From Chloroflexota bacterium (GTDB taxonomy: Bacteria > Chloroflexota > Dormibacteria > CF-121): 32,882 nt of DNA. Both the position numbers and the translations under genes were made by a program. Location: assembly GCA_005880605.1 (NCBI GenBank), contig VBIS01000161.1:1-32882 (forward strand). The letters run 5' to 3'. Shown here one piece after another: positions 16,423 through 32,882 of the stretch (the stretch's first letter is position 1; the number at the start of each line of letters is the position of its first letter). The notes under the pieces are model-generated. The model did no database searches. It saw only the letters and a program-made list of their open reading frames with translations, and was not told the DNA's origin.

Positions 16423-17774
16423 GCCTCAGCAAGCTCTTCAATCAAGCGTCCAACCGCTAACACCCGGGCTTCGTCCATCCATTGCCCCACGACCTGCACG
16501 CCGACGGGAAGGCCGGCGGCGCGCCCAAAGGGGACCGATAAGGCCGGCAGCCCGGTGAGGTTGAAGGGCGCGGTCAAGCGCACCAGCGCGCCATCGACCG
16601 GCTCCTCGCCGGAGCGCCAACGCACCGTCCGCTCACCGACGAGAGGCGCGGTGATCGGCGTTGCGGGCAGGAGCACGACGTCGACCTCCTGGAAGACCCG
16701 TCCCATGGCTGCCCGAAGGCGGCCCCGCATCCGCTGCGCGAGCACGTAGTCGGCGCCGGCGACCAGCGCGCCCAGCTGCAACCGGGTCCGAACGTCAGCG
16801 CCGTAGGCACGTGGCTGCGTGCGGATCCAGCGGCGATGGACCGCGCTGGCCTCGGCGCGAAGCGTGACCAGCTGCATGGCGACCGTCCACTCCATCTCGG
16901 GAATGCTTATCTCGCGAACTCGCAGCCCTCGCCGTCGCAGCGCGGCGGCCGCGGCATCAACCTGCTGGGCAATGCGCGGCTGCACCTTCTGGATAATCGG
17001 CCCTCGCAGGACGCCAACCCGCAGGCCGCGGGTCGCCGTTCGTCGGGCGCGCCGTCCTGTGTCCATGCCGGTCATCACATCCAGGAGCAGGCCCGCATCG
17101 CCCACCGTCCTGGCCAGCGGACCGGCGTGGTCGAGCGACCAGCCCAGGGGAAACGTCCCCTCCAGGGGGATCAGACCAAACGTGGGCTTCAGCCCGACGC
17201 ACCCACAGAGGGAGGCCGGGACCCGGATCGATCCACCGGTGTCCGAGCCAAGAGCGCCGGCGCAGAGCCCGGCCACCACCGCGATCGCCGAACCGCCGCT
17301 CGAGCCCCCGGGGCTGCGCCTGGGGTCATGTGGGTTGCGGGCGACCCCCCACCAGGGATTGGCATTGCTGACGCCGTAGGCGAACTCGTGAAGGTTGGTC
17401 TTCCCGAAGATGATGGCGCCGGCCCCCCGGAGTCGGGCGATTACGGCGGCATCCCGCGAGGGCACCCAGTCCTTAAGGATGCGCGACCCCGCCGTCGTGC
17501 GCACGCCGCGGGTGGCAAACAGGTCTTTGACGGCAATCGGCACGCCCAGCAGCGCTCCAGGTTCACCCCGCGCCAGCCGGCGCTCCGCCCGCCGGGCCTC
17601 CCGCCGAGCCCGCTCCCCGGGCAGCGTGATAAAGGCGTGCAAACCGCCCGCCGCTTCGATGCGCCGGCTGTAGGCGTCCACCAGCTCGAGCGGGGAGACC
17701 GTGCGCCGGCGAAGCGAGCGGGCGATCTCGGCCATCGGTGCCTTGGTCAGCGCCTCAATCGCCCTCATCCCCAT
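16419..17774 (-). CDS. Amidase-signature family amidase
   Basis: This 451-aa amidase-signature enzyme hydrolyses a C-N amide bond. The Ser-cisSer-Lys triad is complete: Lys83 (GVPIAVKDLFA), cis-Ser158 (PGGSSGGSAIAV) and nucleophile Ser182 (GSDTGGSIRVPASLCG). The substrate loops are divergent and the substrate cannot be assigned. GatA identity is unlikely because there is no GatB in the window. A second in-frame ATG at 17768 is an alternative start. The start overlaps the end of the small AtzG/GatC-like gene by about 20 nt, implying coupled translation. Confidence 0.88.
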   Translation of the reverse strand: MGMRAIEALTKAPMAEIARSLRRRTVSPLELVDAYSRRIEAAGGLHAFITLPGERARREARRAERRLARGEPGALLGVPIAVKDLFATRGVRTTAGSRILKDWVPSRDAAVIARLRGAGAIIFGKTNLHEFAYGVSNANPWWGVARNPHDPRRSPGGSSGGSAIAVVAGLCAGALGSDTGGSIRVPASLCGCVGLKPTFGLIPLEGTFPLGWSLDHAGPLARTVGDAGLLLDVMTGMDTGRRARRTATRGLRVGVLRGPIIQKVQPRIAQQVDAAAAALRRRGLRVREISIPEMEWTVAMQLVTLRAEASAVHRRWIRTQPRAYGADVRTRLQLGALVAGADYVLAQRMRGRLRAAMGRVFQEVDVVLLPATPITAPLVGERTVRWRSGEEPVDGALVRLTAPFNLTGLPALSVPFGRAAGLPVGVQVVGQWMDEARVLAVGRLIEELAEA

Positions 17775-17916
17775 CCTCAGGCGCCATTGCCGCTCTCAGT
17801 TCGTCGACCAGGCCCAGGTACCGCTTCCAGGCCGGCAGCAGGTAAGCCACGTCCTGGGCGGTCAGCCGAAGGCCGGCGGCTCGTCCGGCGGCCGCCAGTT
17901 GTTCCCTCTCCGTCAC
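17755..17916 (-). CDS. Small AtzG/GatC-like amidase partner protein
   Basis: This is a 53-aa gene starting at GTG 17916: VTEREQLAAAGRAAGLRL then TAQDVAYLLPAWKRYLGLVD and ELRAAM, ending in an acidic EDGDEGD tail. The pattern of a short first helix, a 'GLxLtxxD' turn and a second amphipathic helix resembles the DUF4089/AtzG and GatC families, small chaperone-like subunits that wrap around amidase-signature enzymes. Its stop lies inside the amidase start region, exactly the arrangement expected for such a partner. Too short for automatic callers; the family assignment rests on context and pattern. Confidence 0.6.
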   Translation of the reverse strand: MTEREQLAAAGRAAGLRLTAQDVAYLLPAWKRYLGLVDELRAAMAPEDGDEGD

Positions 17917-17986
17917 CGGGACAGTATGCAATCCCTGGCGGCTGGCCGGTGATCGGCTCCATCATTACTTGCGAGTGCGAAATGGT

Positions 17987-18016
17987 TTGACAAGAGTGAT
18001 TGCTCGGCCCTAAGCT
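17987..18016 (+). promoter_or_regulatory. Candidate sigma-70-type promoter
   Basis: TTGACA (17987-17992), an 18-nt spacer and TAAGCT (18011-18016) match a housekeeping promoter. It lies about 90 nt before the ATG at 18105. The gap 17917-18104 otherwise contains a potential 9-bp stem (18017-18025 with 18055-18063, one G-U) and a run of seven T (18080-18086) in the leader. Confidence 0.55.
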
Positions 18017-18104
18017 GCCACTGCCGCTTACCGGCTCTTGGGGAGGCGCAGGGTGGCGGTGGCGCTGCCGTTCATCCAATTTTTTTGCTGAGGAGCCCGA
18101 AACA

Positions 18105-19526
18105 ATGCTGCTTGTGGAAGTCCGCCGCCTTGACATCGCCCCCAACACCGACCAGTTCTGGACCATCGTCTCCCGCATCAACGGCCCTGAGTTCATGGGC
18201 GTTCTCTATCGGGCGCGCGAGGCGATCTTCGATAGCGCCGGGATCAGCTTCACGCTCGACCTCCTGAACAAGTTCCTCCAGTTCGACGTGACCAAGAGTT
18301 GGTCGGCGTCCGACGAGGGAGAGCTCTTCATGGGATCGGCGCCAGTGGTCGGCTGGCTGCGTGTCCGGCGCCCCGGGTCCGCCACCCTTCGCGAGCTGCG
18401 CTCGGACGATGTCCATTTCATGGAGCTCGAGCACGCCGCCAAGCCGGCGTTCATCGAAGTCGGCGTAGCGTACCGTGCCGGGACCGAGAAAATCCGCACC
18501 GACTTCCTCAAGCGCGTTCGGACCGCCGCCCAGGAGGCGCTCGGCCAGGAGGTCGGCACCCCGTCGTCATGGCCCGTGCTCGCTCCGGTGGGCAGCCACA
18601 ACTTCGACGCCATCCGTAAGTCGCGCCAAACGATCAACGAGGCGACCGCCGAAGAGAACCAGGCGATGGCCGCCTTCACCACCCCCGAGATCCGGGCCCT
18701 CATCCGCGATCTCGAGCGCGTCGGATCACTGACCGTCTCGGATCTGCCGAAAGTGCTTGGCGAGGCCCAGGGAACGGCCGTCGCCGGACGGCTCGGCGAG
18801 CTCCGCCAGCTCGGCCTAATCCAGTCGGAGTACGTGATCGTGTGCTCGCGCACCGGCAACGCGGTGCTCCGCACCGACGACCCCAACAAGCTGCAGAAGA
18901 TGGCGCCGGACTGGATGAAGTGCGCCTGCGGCCGGCCGCTGAACGAAGAGCGCGTCGACCAGGTCATCATGCCGACCGAGCGCGCCACCGCCCTCAACGA
19001 CAAGGGTCGCTGGATGACGACCCTCGCGACCGCCATCCTCCCCAAGCTCGGCATCAGCCGCGAGCAGGTCATCATCGAGGCCGGCCCGACGGGCACCGAT
19101 ATCGTTCTCGACCTCAGCGGTGACCTCGTGCTGGTCCAGCTGAAGGATCGCGAGTTCAACCTGGCCGACGCCTACGCGTTCAACGCCAAGGTCTCACGGA
19201 TCAAGGCGGCTGAAGGCGTGATCGTCAGCAATGAAGGTCTGTCGGGCGATGCCAAGAAGCTCGTCCAGGAGGAGCTCGGGCCGCAGCGGGCACGGATCAC
19301 CGATCCCTTCCGCATCTCCTTCGTGGAAGGCGTCCAGGGTCTGGAGCACGAGCTTGGCCGCGTCGTGGAGCGGCGTCGCCGCCAGTACTTCCTGCGCGCG
19401 CTCGGCGACCTCGCGACCATCCAGGGGCTCAACATCGGGCAGCTGGCTCTGGCCAAGGTCGAGGCCGGCGGCCGCGCTGGCAAGGAACTCGCCGTTAGCG
19501 CCGAGCCCGTCGCCGCGGAAGCGTAG
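18105..19526 (+). CDS. Unrecognised 473-aa protein with winged-helix-like region, Cys cluster and PD-(D/E)XK-like nuclease core
   Basis: I do not recognise a named family. ATG 18105 is preceded by a clear GAGGAG Shine-Dalgarno. Residues 1-190 are an unassigned mixed alpha/beta region without membrane segments. Residues about 193-255 look like a winged helix (TPEIRALIRDLERVGSLTVS, then a recognition-helix-like segment and beta-hairpin). Cysteines Cys247, Cys273 and Cys275 (KCACGRPL) could form a metal knuckle. Residues about 318-392 resemble a restriction-endonuclease core: Glu325, Asp332 (GTDIVLDL), and Gln345-x-Lys347 (VLVQLKD), then a helix and AAEGVIVSNEGLSGDAKKL as in Mrr-like enzymes. 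A DNA-binding nuclease or decayed nuclease is plausible. It is monocistronic with its own promoter and a GC-rich double hairpin downstream. Confidence 0.75.
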   Translation: MLLVEVRRLDIAPNTDQFWTIVSRINGPEFMGVLYRAREAIFDSAGISFTLDLLNKFLQFDVTKSWSASDEGELFMGSAPVVGWLRVRRPGSATLRELRSDDVHFMELEHAAKPAFIEVGVAYRAGTEKIRTDFLKRVRTAAQEALGQEVGTPSSWPVLAPVGSHNFDAIRKSRQTINEATAEENQAMAAFTTPEIRALIRDLERVGSLTVSDLPKVLGEAQGTAVAGRLGELRQLGLIQSEYVIVCSRTGNAVLRTDDPNKLQKMAPDWMKCACGRPLNEERVDQVIMPTERATALNDKGRWMTTLATAILPKLGISREQVIIEAGPTGTDIVLDLSGDLVLVQLKDREFNLADAYAFNAKVSRIKAAEGVIVSNEGLSGDAKKLVQEELGPQRARITDPFRISFVEGVQGLEHELGRVVERRRRQYFLRALGDLATIQGLNIGQLALAKVEAGGRAGKELAVSAEPVAAEA

Positions 19527-19626: not shown

Positions 19627-19818
19627 ATGCATATCGGCAGGGTGGTCGTGGGCGTGATCGGGATGCTGGCCGGTGCCGTGTGGATCCTGCAGGGGTCGGG
19701 CGTGATCCCGGGCAGTTTCATGACCGGCCAGCGCATGTGGCTCGTCATCGGCATCGTGGTTGCGATCGTTGGACTGGGCATCGCCTACATCGGAATCCGC
19801 GGGCCGGCCAAGCCCTAA
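19627..19818 (+). CDS. Small two-helix membrane protein
   Basis: This is a 63-aa hydrophobic protein. Two membrane segments are visible: VVVGVIGMLAGAVWILQG and MWLVIGIVVAIVGLGIAYIG, joined by a short loop containing IPGSFMTGQ, a motif I have seen in small uncharacterised membrane proteins of high-GC bacteria. The function is unknown. The downstream oxidoreductase starts 4 bp after its stop, so it is probably the first gene of that operon and may be a subunit or accessory. Confidence 0.75.
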   Translation: MHIGRVVVGVIGMLAGAVWILQGSGVIPGSFMTGQRMWLVIGIVVAIVGLGIAYIGIRGPAKP

Positions 19819-29136: not shown

Positions 29137-32100
29137 TTAGGTGGAGACTTCTTCTTCGACCTGGTCGGGGCTCGACCCGTTGGCCGGCGCTCCCTCGGCG
29201 GAGGCTGGCACGAGAGATGGTCCCGGCAGCCGGATGATGGTCCAGTCCTCGTTCTTCTCGGCGCGGTCGGCGAGCGCCTCATCCTTCGAAAAGAGGATGA
29301 CCTGGTGGTCGAGGCGGCCCAGCTCGTCCATCGCCGCCCGCAGCCGGCGGCGATCGGCGTGCACCAGCGCTTCGTCGAGCAGCAATGGCGGCGGCTCCGC
29401 GTTTCCGCCGATGATCCGGGCCAGCGCCAGGCGCTCGAGCAAGTAGATCAACGAACGGGTCCCAAGACTGAGGTTATCGACGTCTTTATATCCTCGTTGA
29501 TCCTGCGTCTTGACCGAGAGCGCGAGATCTTCCCCGATCCGCACATCCCGGTAGCGGCCGTTCGTGATGGGGGAGAGCTGGCCCTGTAGGGCCGACTTGA
29601 GGCGGGGGATGACAGCTCGACGCACGGATTTCGACGCCGCCTCCAGAGTTTCGATGGCGAGGTCGTAGGCGTGGGCCTCGGCCTCCAGCTCCTGCAGCTG
29701 CTCGCGGACGGTGGCGATCTCCTCCTCGAGGGAGGCGACATCGCCGATCTGGGATAGCCGGTCGTTCAGAAGCTCCTCGGCGCGGGCCCGTTCCTCTTGG
29801 GCTCGCTCCTTGACGCTGCGGTGTTGGTCGCGCTGCCGCTCGAGCTCGGCCAGGGGAAGCGCCGCGAATTCGGCCGCACGGACCGGGTCGACGTTGGCGC
29901 CCACCTCGCCTAGCTGGCGGGTGAGGTCGTCGACCAGCTGACGCAGCGACCCCGCTTCGTCCGCCGTCACGCCGCCGCGCTGCGATTCCAACTCTGCCAG
30001 TCGAACGCTCGACGTCCGGTAGGCCTCGGCGTGACTGACGCCGGCTTCCCAGGCCACAGCCCCAGCCTCCATATCGGGATCGGTGATCCCGGACCGCGCG
30101 TAGATCGCCGCTAATTGCCGGGCGTAATCGTCAGCCTTCGCACGTTCGGCGGTCGAGCGCTCGCCAGGAGCGCGAAGTTGCGCCAGCTGGGCGTCAAGCT
30201 GCTCGATCCGGGTGCGAACCTGCTGCGCCTGGCGCTCGGCCTCGCAACTGGCGATAAAGTCGCGGGCCGCGCCCAGCGCCTCGCGCCGGTCGAACCCGAG
30301 CCGGTCGAGCAGGCTGTGGAGCTGCTGCCGCAACGATTCCCGGCGCTGGTCCATCTCGGTCTCGGCGCGCGACGCCTCCAGCGAGCGCTGGCTGGCGGCG
30401 TTCCACGCCTGACTGTCCTGAGCCAGCGATTCCACGTCTCTGGCGGTCTCCTCGACCGCCTCTTCGCTGGGGGCAGGCTGGGGTAGCCCCCAGGATCCGA
30501 CCAGCTCGCGCAGGCTCCGACCGGCGATCTGCGCTCGCTCTTCCAACTCGGTGGCCTGGCGATCGAGCTCGAGGCGGGTGGCATCGTAGCGGACCTTCTG
30601 GAGGTGCTCGACGAGCGCCTGCTGCAGCTCCCCCGAGCTGCGGACGCCCCAGGGTTGCAGGATCTCCCGGCGCTTGACGCGAGCCTCGTCTTTGGCTCGA
30701 AGGCGGCGATCGACCTCCCGGACGGCGGCGCCGCGGACCCAGATGCCGATGCCCGTGGACAGCACGCCCATGCCGAGCAGGAAGAAGGCCACGCCGCTGA
30801 GCGGCAGGGGCATACCGCCCTGAAGCGCGAGAAAGGCGACCAGGATCGCCATCGCGGTGAGCAGGAGGCCACCGAGCATGGCGCCGAGGAAGGTTCGCTG
30901 CCGGCTCCGGGCGCGCTCGGCCATGGCTTCCTCACGCCGCATTGCCTCCTCGGCCTGCTGGCCCGACTTGATGACATCCGGGACTTCCTTGTAACGCGCG
31001 ATGTCGTGCTTGAGCTGCTCCAGCCGCGGCGGGAGTTCGGCACCGGCGCGGCTGCGCGCCTCGGTGGCGACGTTATGGCGCTCGCGCCATTCGGAGTAGA
31101 CGCGCTGGAACTCCATCTGGCGGGCGGGCCAATCGAGGTTCTGGCCGATTAAGCCGGGGTGCCGCTCGGCGATCCGCCGCGCCTCTTCGGCCGCCGTCTG
31201 GGCGCGCAAATGGATCTGCGGGGCCTGGGCATCCGCGACATTGAGAGAGCTCAGCAGTTCACGGACCGCCGGTTCCTGTTCCAGCGCTGCGGCATCGATG
31301 CCACGGGCGCGGGTTTGGTGACCTTGCGCGTCCTGTTCGAGCTTGGCCCGCTCGGCCTCGAGCTGCTGCACCTGCGCGGCGTTCTCCGCGGCACGACGCT
31401 CGAAGTCCTCCTGCGCCTCGCGAGTCGCCCGCAGGTGGCTGCGCAGCTCCTGGACCTCCGCCTGACGGTCGAGCGGGAACATCGCAAAGCGCGTGTGGTC
31501 CTCCTGACGAGTCCGCTCGTCACCGATCGCCCTCTCCAACATCTCGACGCGCTCGAGCCGATGACGCGCCTCGTCCAGGCGGGAGGCGAGGACGGCGGCG
31601 TCAAGCAGCTGGACGACGGCCAACTCCGCCTCGGTCAGCGCCGATACGGTCTCGCGCTTCTGCGCCAGTTCGTCGACGGCGCTACGAGCCTGGCGAGCGG
31701 CGGTGATTTGCCGCTCCAGGTCGGAGAGTCGGCTTTCAAGGTCGTGGAGCGGGCCCGTACGTCCGCGTGGCTTCCCGATGCGCTGGGCTCGTTCCTGGCG
31801 CAGCCGGTCGAGTACCCCTTGTGCGGTTCGATCCGGGTGTGCCGAGTCCGCCAGCGCCACGATCGCTTCCTTGATGCTGCCGGCGTCCTCGAGACGCAGC
31901 ACCTCGCTGCGCGAGATGCAGGCCGTGTTGGTGTAGATGTCCCGGCTGATGCCGAGCAACTGCCGCCCTACCTGGAGTCCACCCCAGGGGTCGCGTTCGA
32001 ACCGGTCGTTGAGCTCCGCACCGCTGGCGAGATCGAGGACCCGAACCGAGTCGGCGTCGAGGTCGCGCTCGACCCGTAGTCTCGAGCCGTCGTCCAGCTC

Positions 32101-32340
32101 GAATTCGAGCGCGAGGCCGAAGCCCCCGCCCTCCCACGGTCGCCAGCGATCGGTGCGCTCGGCGATGGCTGATCGCCGGTCGCCGGTCTCGAGACCATAC
32201 AGGCCGCTCACGATCGCTTCCTGGAGCGTCGACTTCCCGGCCTCGTTGGGGCCAACGACGAGGTTCATCGTGGGACCGAAGCGGAGATCTATCCCTTGAA
32301 GGGTGCCGAAGCCTTCGACCTCGATGCGGGTCAGGCGCAT
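29137..32340 (-). CDS. YhaN-type SMC/Rad50-like ATPase with internal membrane segments
   Basis: This is a 1067-aa protein. Walker A GPNEAGKST (30-38) starts an ABC-type head; the second half-head at the C-terminus has the signature LSLGTRSLIYLLERLAL (in place of LSGGQ) and Walker B PPLLLDEALVHAD, then the switch LFSKDE. Between them is a very long Glu/Arg/Gln-rich coiled coil. It is interrupted at about residues 478-536 by two hydrophobic segments (AMLGGLLLTAMAILVAFLAL and GVAFFLLGMGVLSTGIGIWV). This layout is that of Bacillus YhaN rather than SbcC. It follows the SbcD/YhaO-like gene after 28 bp, so the two likely form a DNA end-processing complex, here perhaps membrane-linked. Confidence 0.88.
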   Translation of the reverse strand: MRLTRIEVEGFGTLQGIDLRFGPTMNLVVGPNEAGKSTLQEAIVSGLYGLETGDRRSAIAERTDRWRPWEGGGFGLALEFELDDGSRLRVERDLDADSVRVLDLASGAELNDRFERDPWGGLQVGRQLLGISRDIYTNTACISRSEVLRLEDAGSIKEAIVALADSAHPDRTAQGVLDRLRQERAQRIGKPRGRTGPLHDLESRLSDLERQITAARQARSAVDELAQKRETVSALTEAELAVVQLLDAAVLASRLDEARHRLERVEMLERAIGDERTRQEDHTRFAMFPLDRQAEVQELRSHLRATREAQEDFERRAAENAAQVQQLEAERAKLEQDAQGHQTRARGIDAAALEQEPAVRELLSSLNVADAQAPQIHLRAQTAAEEARRIAERHPGLIGQNLDWPARQMEFQRVYSEWRERHNVATEARSRAGAELPPRLEQLKHDIARYKEVPDVIKSGQQAEEAMRREEAMAERARSRQRTFLGAMLGGLLLTAMAILVAFLALQGGMPLPLSGVAFFLLGMGVLSTGIGIWVRGAAVREVDRRLRAKDEARVKRREILQPWGVRSSGELQQALVEHLQKVRYDATRLELDRQATELEERAQIAGRSLRELVGSWGLPQPAPSEEAVEETARDVESLAQDSQAWNAASQRSLEASRAETEMDQRRESLRQQLHSLLDRLGFDRREALGAARDFIASCEAERQAQQVRTRIEQLDAQLAQLRAPGERSTAERAKADDYARQLAAIYARSGITDPDMEAGAVAWEAGVSHAEAYRTSSVRLAELESQRGGVTADEAGSLRQLVDDLTRQLGEVGANVDPVRAAEFAALPLAELERQRDQHRSVKERAQEERARAEELLNDRLSQIGDVASLEEEIATVREQLQELEAEAHAYDLAIETLEAASKSVRRAVIPRLKSALQGQLSPITNGRYRDVRIGEDLALSVKTQDQRGYKDVDNLSLGTRSLIYLLERLALARIIGGNAEPPPLLLDEALVHADRRRLRAAMDELGRLDHQVILFSKDEALADRAEKNEDWTIIRLPGPSLVPASAEGAPANGSSPDQVEEEVST

Positions 32341-32368: not shown

Positions 32369-32882
32369 TCATTCGTCGAAGGCATCGAGCGCCAGCTGGA
32401 GCGCTCGACCAACCGTCTGTTCCTCCTGGCGTGATCCCTGCTTGTGATCGACGAGCTTGCGAACCATTTCTCCGCGGCTGGTGAACTCCTGGGTCGCCGC
32501 CTCGAGGTCGTGCGAGACGCGAGACTGGTCGCGGAACTCGAGATAGGCGAATCCGTCGCTACACTCGGTCGACAGTGCCTGCGGATCGATGTTCAACGAC
32601 CGGGCCCGTTCGCCGACCAGCGTCGCCCGGATCACGGCGCCCTCCAGGTGCTTGCCCTCACGAATCGCAAAGACCGCGTCGCGCACCTGGTCGGGGCTTG
32701 TCATGCCGGTGATATCGATCGTCTCTTGGGCGAACTGGCGCTGATTGACGTCCTCCAGCAACACGTGCACCGCGCCATCATCCTCGATGGTCACGAGCGC
32801 GGTACAATGCCGCCCGGTTTCGTTCCACCCCAACGGTTCGGGACTACCCGGATATGTCATCGGGCCGCCCGTGCGTGCCTCG
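32369..32882 (-). CDS. SbcD/YhaO-type DNA repair exonuclease, C-terminal part only
   Basis: The minus-strand frame is open to the right edge of the window, so the catalytic metallophosphoesterase domain and the start lie outside. The visible 170 residues begin with a YPGSPEPLGWNETG block, the conserved 'YPGSxxPxxFxE' junction where the nuclease domain meets the C-terminal capping domain of SbcD/YhaO proteins. VTIEDDGAVHVLLEDVNQRQF and a helical end (QTVGRALQLALDAFDE) follow. A Met at 32860 is internal, not the start. Its partner ATPase gene follows on the same strand. Confidence 0.8.
   Translation of the reverse strand, partial: EARTGGPMTYPGSPEPLGWNETGRHCTALVTIEDDGAVHVLLEDVNQRQFAQETIDITGMTSPDQVRDAVFAIREGKHLEGAVIRATLVGERARSLNIDPQALSTECSDGFAYLEFRDQSRVSHDLEAATQEFTSRGEMVRKLVDHKQGSRQEEQTVGRALQLALDAFDE

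Follow-up and report, generated by a model that had tools for sequence, protein, structure and literature searches.

The gene and its surroundings

The window, that is the whole analysed stretch of 32,882 bp, comes from a family of soil Chloroflexota (the records of its relatives read Chloroflexi bacterium, from soil-depth samples). Open reading frame analysis finds in it a gene for a protein of 473 amino acids with an ATG start (Table 1). The gene had been described as solitary, and its surroundings agree with this: the adjoining amidase gene is divergent, and a co-directional molybdopterin oxidoreductase gene follows about 260 bp downstream. Between the target gene and the latter lies a hydrophobic open reading frame of 63 codons (MHIGRVVVGVIGMLAG..., 19629-19817, plus strand), which probably encodes a small membrane protein. 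Another short reading frame (about 17755-17930, minus strand), with a GatC/AtzG-like look, is found just 5′ of the amidase start and is divergent from the target. At 29137-32340 on the minus strand an SbcC/Rad50-like AAA protein is encoded, and the adjoining reading frame 32369-32860 may be its partner.

Table 1. Position of the gene, its upstream signals and the parts of its product within the window
Feature	Position	Strand	Remarks
-35 hexamer TTGACA within the invariant GTTTGACA block	17987..17992	+	invariant in 14 aligned upstream regions; motif seen at the target only in the genomes searched
-10-like TAAGCT, 18-nt spacer	18011..18016	+	TATTCT in some relatives; poor sigma-70 match
Conserved leader block with GGGGA core	18034..18046	+	upstream alignment; no support for RNA structure
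Shine-Dalgarno GAGGAG, 9 nt 5′ of ATG	18090..18095	+	upstream alignment
Coding sequence, family-restricted core protein	18105..19526	+	start shared by the 14 aligned upstream regions; an orthologue in each of the 18 family genomes
N-terminal module, residues 1-175	18105..18629	+	no known domain found; residues 1-110 at 89-90% identity
ArsR-like winged-helix region, residues 180-243	18642..18833	+	weak matches; helices in model
Cys module, residues 244-292	18834..18980	+	invariant C247, C273 and C275 (CxC)
Mrr-like PD-(D/E)XK fold domain, residues 293-408	18981..19328	+	profile comparison, Pfam, model
Asp332, invariant	19098..19100	+	aligned with the Mrr catalytic Asp
Gln345, Gln of the proposed QxK	19137..19139	+	Val in 16/18 sequences
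Lys347, invariant	19143..19145	+	aligned with the Mrr catalytic Lys
Long basic C-terminal helix, residues 409-457 (RVVERRRRQYFLRA)	19329..19475	+	alignment and model; core near-invariant

The signals in front of the gene are well preserved. The GTTTGACA block, the AGGAG core of the Shine-Dalgarno sequence and the ATG are kept in all 14 aligned upstream regions, and in the homologues AGGAGC precedes the shared ATG. In most of these regions CCTAAGCT is found about 18 nt past TTGACA. The composite motif GTTTGACA-N16-22-CTAAGCT was searched for in four genomes and turned up a single time in each of three, always at the target gene. A scan for consensus sigma-70 promoters did not list this promoter because its -10 element is poor. 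We rejected an alternative TTG start at position 18000 (508 amino acids): the leader has indels between relatives, and the ATG and its Shine-Dalgarno sequence are conserved. Since the start, the Shine-Dalgarno sequence and the upstream blocks are conserved and the motif is seen at the target only, we conclude that this is a real and separately expressed gene, with the strong Shine-Dalgarno sequence and the TTGACA promoter of its own that the initial annotation had assigned to it. The structured flanks proposed there were not confirmed: no relevant family was found when the leader RNA was compared with Rfam, and a covariation test of the leader alignment gave no favourable term. The leader with its conserved GGGGA block (18017-18089, plus strand) is probably transcribed and is a possible operator or regulatory site.

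Distribution and sequence constraint

The gene is present in one copy in each of the 18 genomes of the family, in split pieces where assemblies are fragmented. It was absent from the 43 other class relatives of a first survey, and no full-length copy was found in the 92 other genomes of a class set of 110, one of which, from a sister family, carries a broken remnant. A phylum sample of 400 genomes gave family members and chance matches only. The absence thus refers to the class genomes and the Chloroflexota sample, one contig scan having used two exact peptide patterns only. Weak genome matches to hydrogenase small subunits (L040-L042) were inspected and judged to be due to chance, as were weak matches to a methyltransferase, to DnaJ and PheS, to a protein resembling alcohol dehydrogenase and to PurM read in an antisense frame. 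Searches of phages, plasmids and viral contigs gave no match to either the target or the sister-family remnant.

The gene order histidine kinase, hydrolase, LysM/CHAP protein, amidase, target, molybdopterin oxidoreductase, ApbE and aminotransferase is shared. In the more distant genera a few of these neighbours are missing or undetected; the order is otherwise broadly kept. A survey of the neighbours, which the initial annotation had proposed as a check, thus finds largely the same genes throughout the family and no defence genes among them.

In all eight loci that were ranked no neighbouring gene is as conserved as the target. Across genera it retains 76-85% identity, compared with medians of 61-66% for the neighbours and 88-90% for RecA. 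The ratio pN/pS is 0.05-0.11 when read within a genus, as synonymous sites are near saturation at greater distance. The gene is therefore under purifying selection. This constraint is unevenly distributed along the protein. The Cys module ranks highest (92-96% identity across genera, 92-100% overall), followed by residues 1-110 (89-90%); judged from these identities both are conserved about like RecA. The C-terminal part retains 77-85%, the winged-helix region 72-91% and residues 111-175 68-80%. The restriction endonuclease-like domain is, at 71-74%, the fastest-evolving large module. Few parts of the protein are less constrained than this domain, and in this the protein is unlike an enzyme whose purpose is cutting.

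Domain structure

The initial annotation had proposed a winged helix, a cysteine cluster and a PD-(D/E)XK fold. With regard to the fold, the C-terminal alignment was compared by hhalign with one of true Mrr_cat domains of the same class, which gave a probability of 83% and E = 9e-6; D332 falls on the Asp of Mrr, and Q/V345-x-K347 on its QxK. The domain alone scored 20.2 bits both against Mrr_cat (PF04471) and against NA-iREase1 (PF22722), below the gathering cut-offs of 21 and 27, respectively. The profile comparison and these near-threshold matches bear out the Mrr-like segment. The AlphaFold models are of low confidence (mean pLDDT 46.5 and 58.5). In the model with mean pLDDT 46.5, built with 17 close sequences, the secondary structure of residues 292-407 follows the order alpha-beta-beta-beta-alpha-beta. 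A full-length Foldseek search against the PDB with such a low-confidence model gave nothing below E = 0.001; the only sensible matches were to the Rpb5 N-terminal domain, the best with a probability of about 0.9. SCOP classes this domain with the restriction endonuclease-like fold. KRAS-like matches of a domain-only model (probability at most 0.25) were disregarded as meaningless given the model quality. The assignment of the C-terminal part to a distant Mrr-like PD-(D/E)XK domain thus appears to be largely right.

The winged helix is less clear. ArsR-type matches do fall on residues 180-243 and all are weak (E 0.04-0.07): NmtR (2lkp) aligns with residues 178-241 at E = 0.039, the NCBIfam model HTH_metalloreg at E = 0.074 with 12.9 bits, where the cut-off is 55, and a profile of the N-terminal part recovers an ArsR regulator at E = 0.04. 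Residues 116-167 resemble a beta-alpha-beta unit of 4-oxalocrotonate tautomerase, which is not significant (E = 0.09). Matches to the Pfam families DPBB_PEX6, MLTR_LBD and DRAT were below threshold and were rejected. The three cysteines singled out beforehand (Cys247, Cys273 and Cys275) are invariant in the family alignment.

The active site

The sequence had been taken for an active nuclease of the QxK type. The catalytic Asp expected on the second strand is found as the invariant D332, and Lys347, Asp336 and Asp348 are invariant as well. Glu325, also named as a residue to check, is either E or D among the homologues. Gln345 occurs only in the window protein and in one further protein (L022), which are 98% identical; the other 16 of the 18 sequences carry Val there, and a (D/E/Q)xK motif on the third strand was therefore not found as a family feature. 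Gln345 is a change specific to one lineage and limited to two nearly identical genomes. The codons GTG, GTC and GTT all encode Val345, so that the residue was kept through synonymous change. In the model residue 345 would face D332 (strands 330-337 and 340-346) and hence occupy the position of the second metal ligand. The helix-A Glu of the Mrr FE motif is absent; the position corresponding to it, 305, is Thr or Ile, an assignment extrapolated two to three residues past the aligned block. At the level of the aligned sequences the Mrr-type domain thus keeps Asp and Lys and has Val in most members at the acidic/Gln position of the third strand. With Gln in only two near-identical genomes and the helix-A Glu missing, the proposal of an active QxK nuclease is not upheld.

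The remnant in the sister family (L106; G020, contig C13, 212818-213181, minus strand) is a broken restriction endonuclease-like domain at a contig end with an interrupted frame. It is 33% identical over the aligned part and reads LELKDREF, in which ELK is a canonical ExK. This suggests that the ancestor had a complete active site; a single decayed copy is, however, no proof.

Proposed function

We suggest, with moderate confidence, a core chromosomal protein specific to this lineage, which binds DNA, is mostly catalytically dead and probably acts as a regulator or a nucleoid-associated factor. The ArsR-like winged helix would contact DNA, and the Cys module could stabilise it, perhaps with a metal. 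The restriction endonuclease-like domain and the basic C-terminal helix might provide surfaces for DNA binding and/or dimerisation without cutting, and the conserved N-terminal module may serve a key interaction with a ligand or partner. In this reading the protein derives from an Mrr-type nuclease; that catalysis was mostly lost is suggested by Val345 in 16 of 18 sequences and by a catalytic-type domain that diverges beyond the other large modules. Against this, the invariant Asp332, Lys347, Asp336 and Asp348 could mean that a non-canonical active site is retained, Gln345 restores the QxK pattern in the genome of the window itself, the winged helix and a metal at the cysteines rely on weak matches or none, and the models are of low confidence. 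A more far-reaching version is tentative and rather doubtful, namely that the protein is a family-specific, probably essential DNA-binding factor in which an Mrr-type nuclease has lost catalysis and gained a new, highly conserved N-terminal module and a Cys module, and so became a domesticated housekeeping regulator or chromosome organiser. A core protein under constraint close to that of RecA, found in every family member examined and virtually absent from the rest of the phylum sample, would point to a lineage-specific chromosome biology. If true, this would be a clean case in which a nuclease domain of the restriction type became a housekeeping part that does not cut, and the broken ExK relative in the sister family would hint at the ancestral state.

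Other functions have to be considered. The cysteines could be the sensor of a metal- or redox-responsive transcription factor with a winged helix, the N-terminal and restriction endonuclease-like parts being structural. The winged-helix matches are indeed to ArsR-type metalloregulators, no other part is as conserved as the Cys module, and the promoter and leader are dedicated and conserved. We nevertheless consider this unlikely: the matches are weak, the cysteines fall outside the usual ArsR metal motif, and no gene for metal transport or efflux was found adjacent. From ArsR/SmtB proteins such as NmtR, to which residues 178-241 align weakly (E 0.04), the target differs in being far larger, and an ArsR metal motif was not found in it. 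An active housekeeping nuclease that serves repair or recombination and relies on Asp332, Lys347 and a second metal ligand of a non-canonical kind seems improbable to us. The four invariant residues D332, K347, D336 and D348, the ELK of the sister-family remnant and the universality and near-RecA conservation would suit it, but Val stands in 16 of 18 sequences where a partner of Asp332 is expected, Thr or Ile305 replaces the helix-A Glu of Mrr, and the nuclease-like domain is the fastest-evolving large module. Quite improbable is a scaffold that binds protein or RNA independently of DNA, with protein contacts made by the winged helix and the restriction endonuclease-like domain as by the Rpb5 jaw in RNA polymerase; the eroded catalytic site and the Rpb5 match of the model would agree with it, yet the model is of low confidence.

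Very improbable in our view is a type IV-like, modification-dependent restriction enzyme composed of a winged helix and an Mrr (PD-QXK) domain. Fusions of this kind are putative type IV enzymes (PMC11037411), and the order of the domains, with the winged helix preceding the Mrr-like domain, is similar; Gln345 in the genome of the window would also agree with it. Unlike the wH-Mrr (PD-QXK)-NTPase fusion endonucleases (PMC11037411), however, the target has no NTPase, its Gln is not conserved, and it is neither patchy nor linked to defence. PADLOC gave no match, no defence genes were found among the neighbours at the family loci, and the searches of phages and plasmids gave no match either. Within its one family the gene occurs in every genome as a single copy, in conserved surroundings, and evolves slowly; among the roles initially considered this makes defence unlikely and favours housekeeping, and the protein can still be called undescribed.

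Relation to restriction endonuclease-like families

Inactive restriction endonuclease domains are known from defence proteins (PMC10853773). The target shares with NA-iREase1, the NACHT-associated inactive restriction endonuclease domain, a probable restriction endonuclease-like fold, a degenerate site and an equal Pfam score. It differs in its other accessory domains and in scoring below the gathering threshold, and no NACHT domain was found in the protein as a partner. With Mrr_cat, which forms the PD-QXK catalytic part in restriction enzymes of the Mrr type, it has in common the predicted fold order, the active-site Asp and Lys and a segment resembling AxGVIVSNxGLSxxA. In contrast to Mrr_cat it mostly has Val for Gln, lacks the helix-A Glu, scores below the gathering cut-off and is a universal core gene of its family, whereas true Mrr_cat genes are patchy (28 of 61 genomes of the same set), as restriction genes are expected to be. 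One such separate, true Mrr_cat gene lies in the same genome (L021; G000, contig C274, 1273-1428) and is apparently cut or frame-broken.
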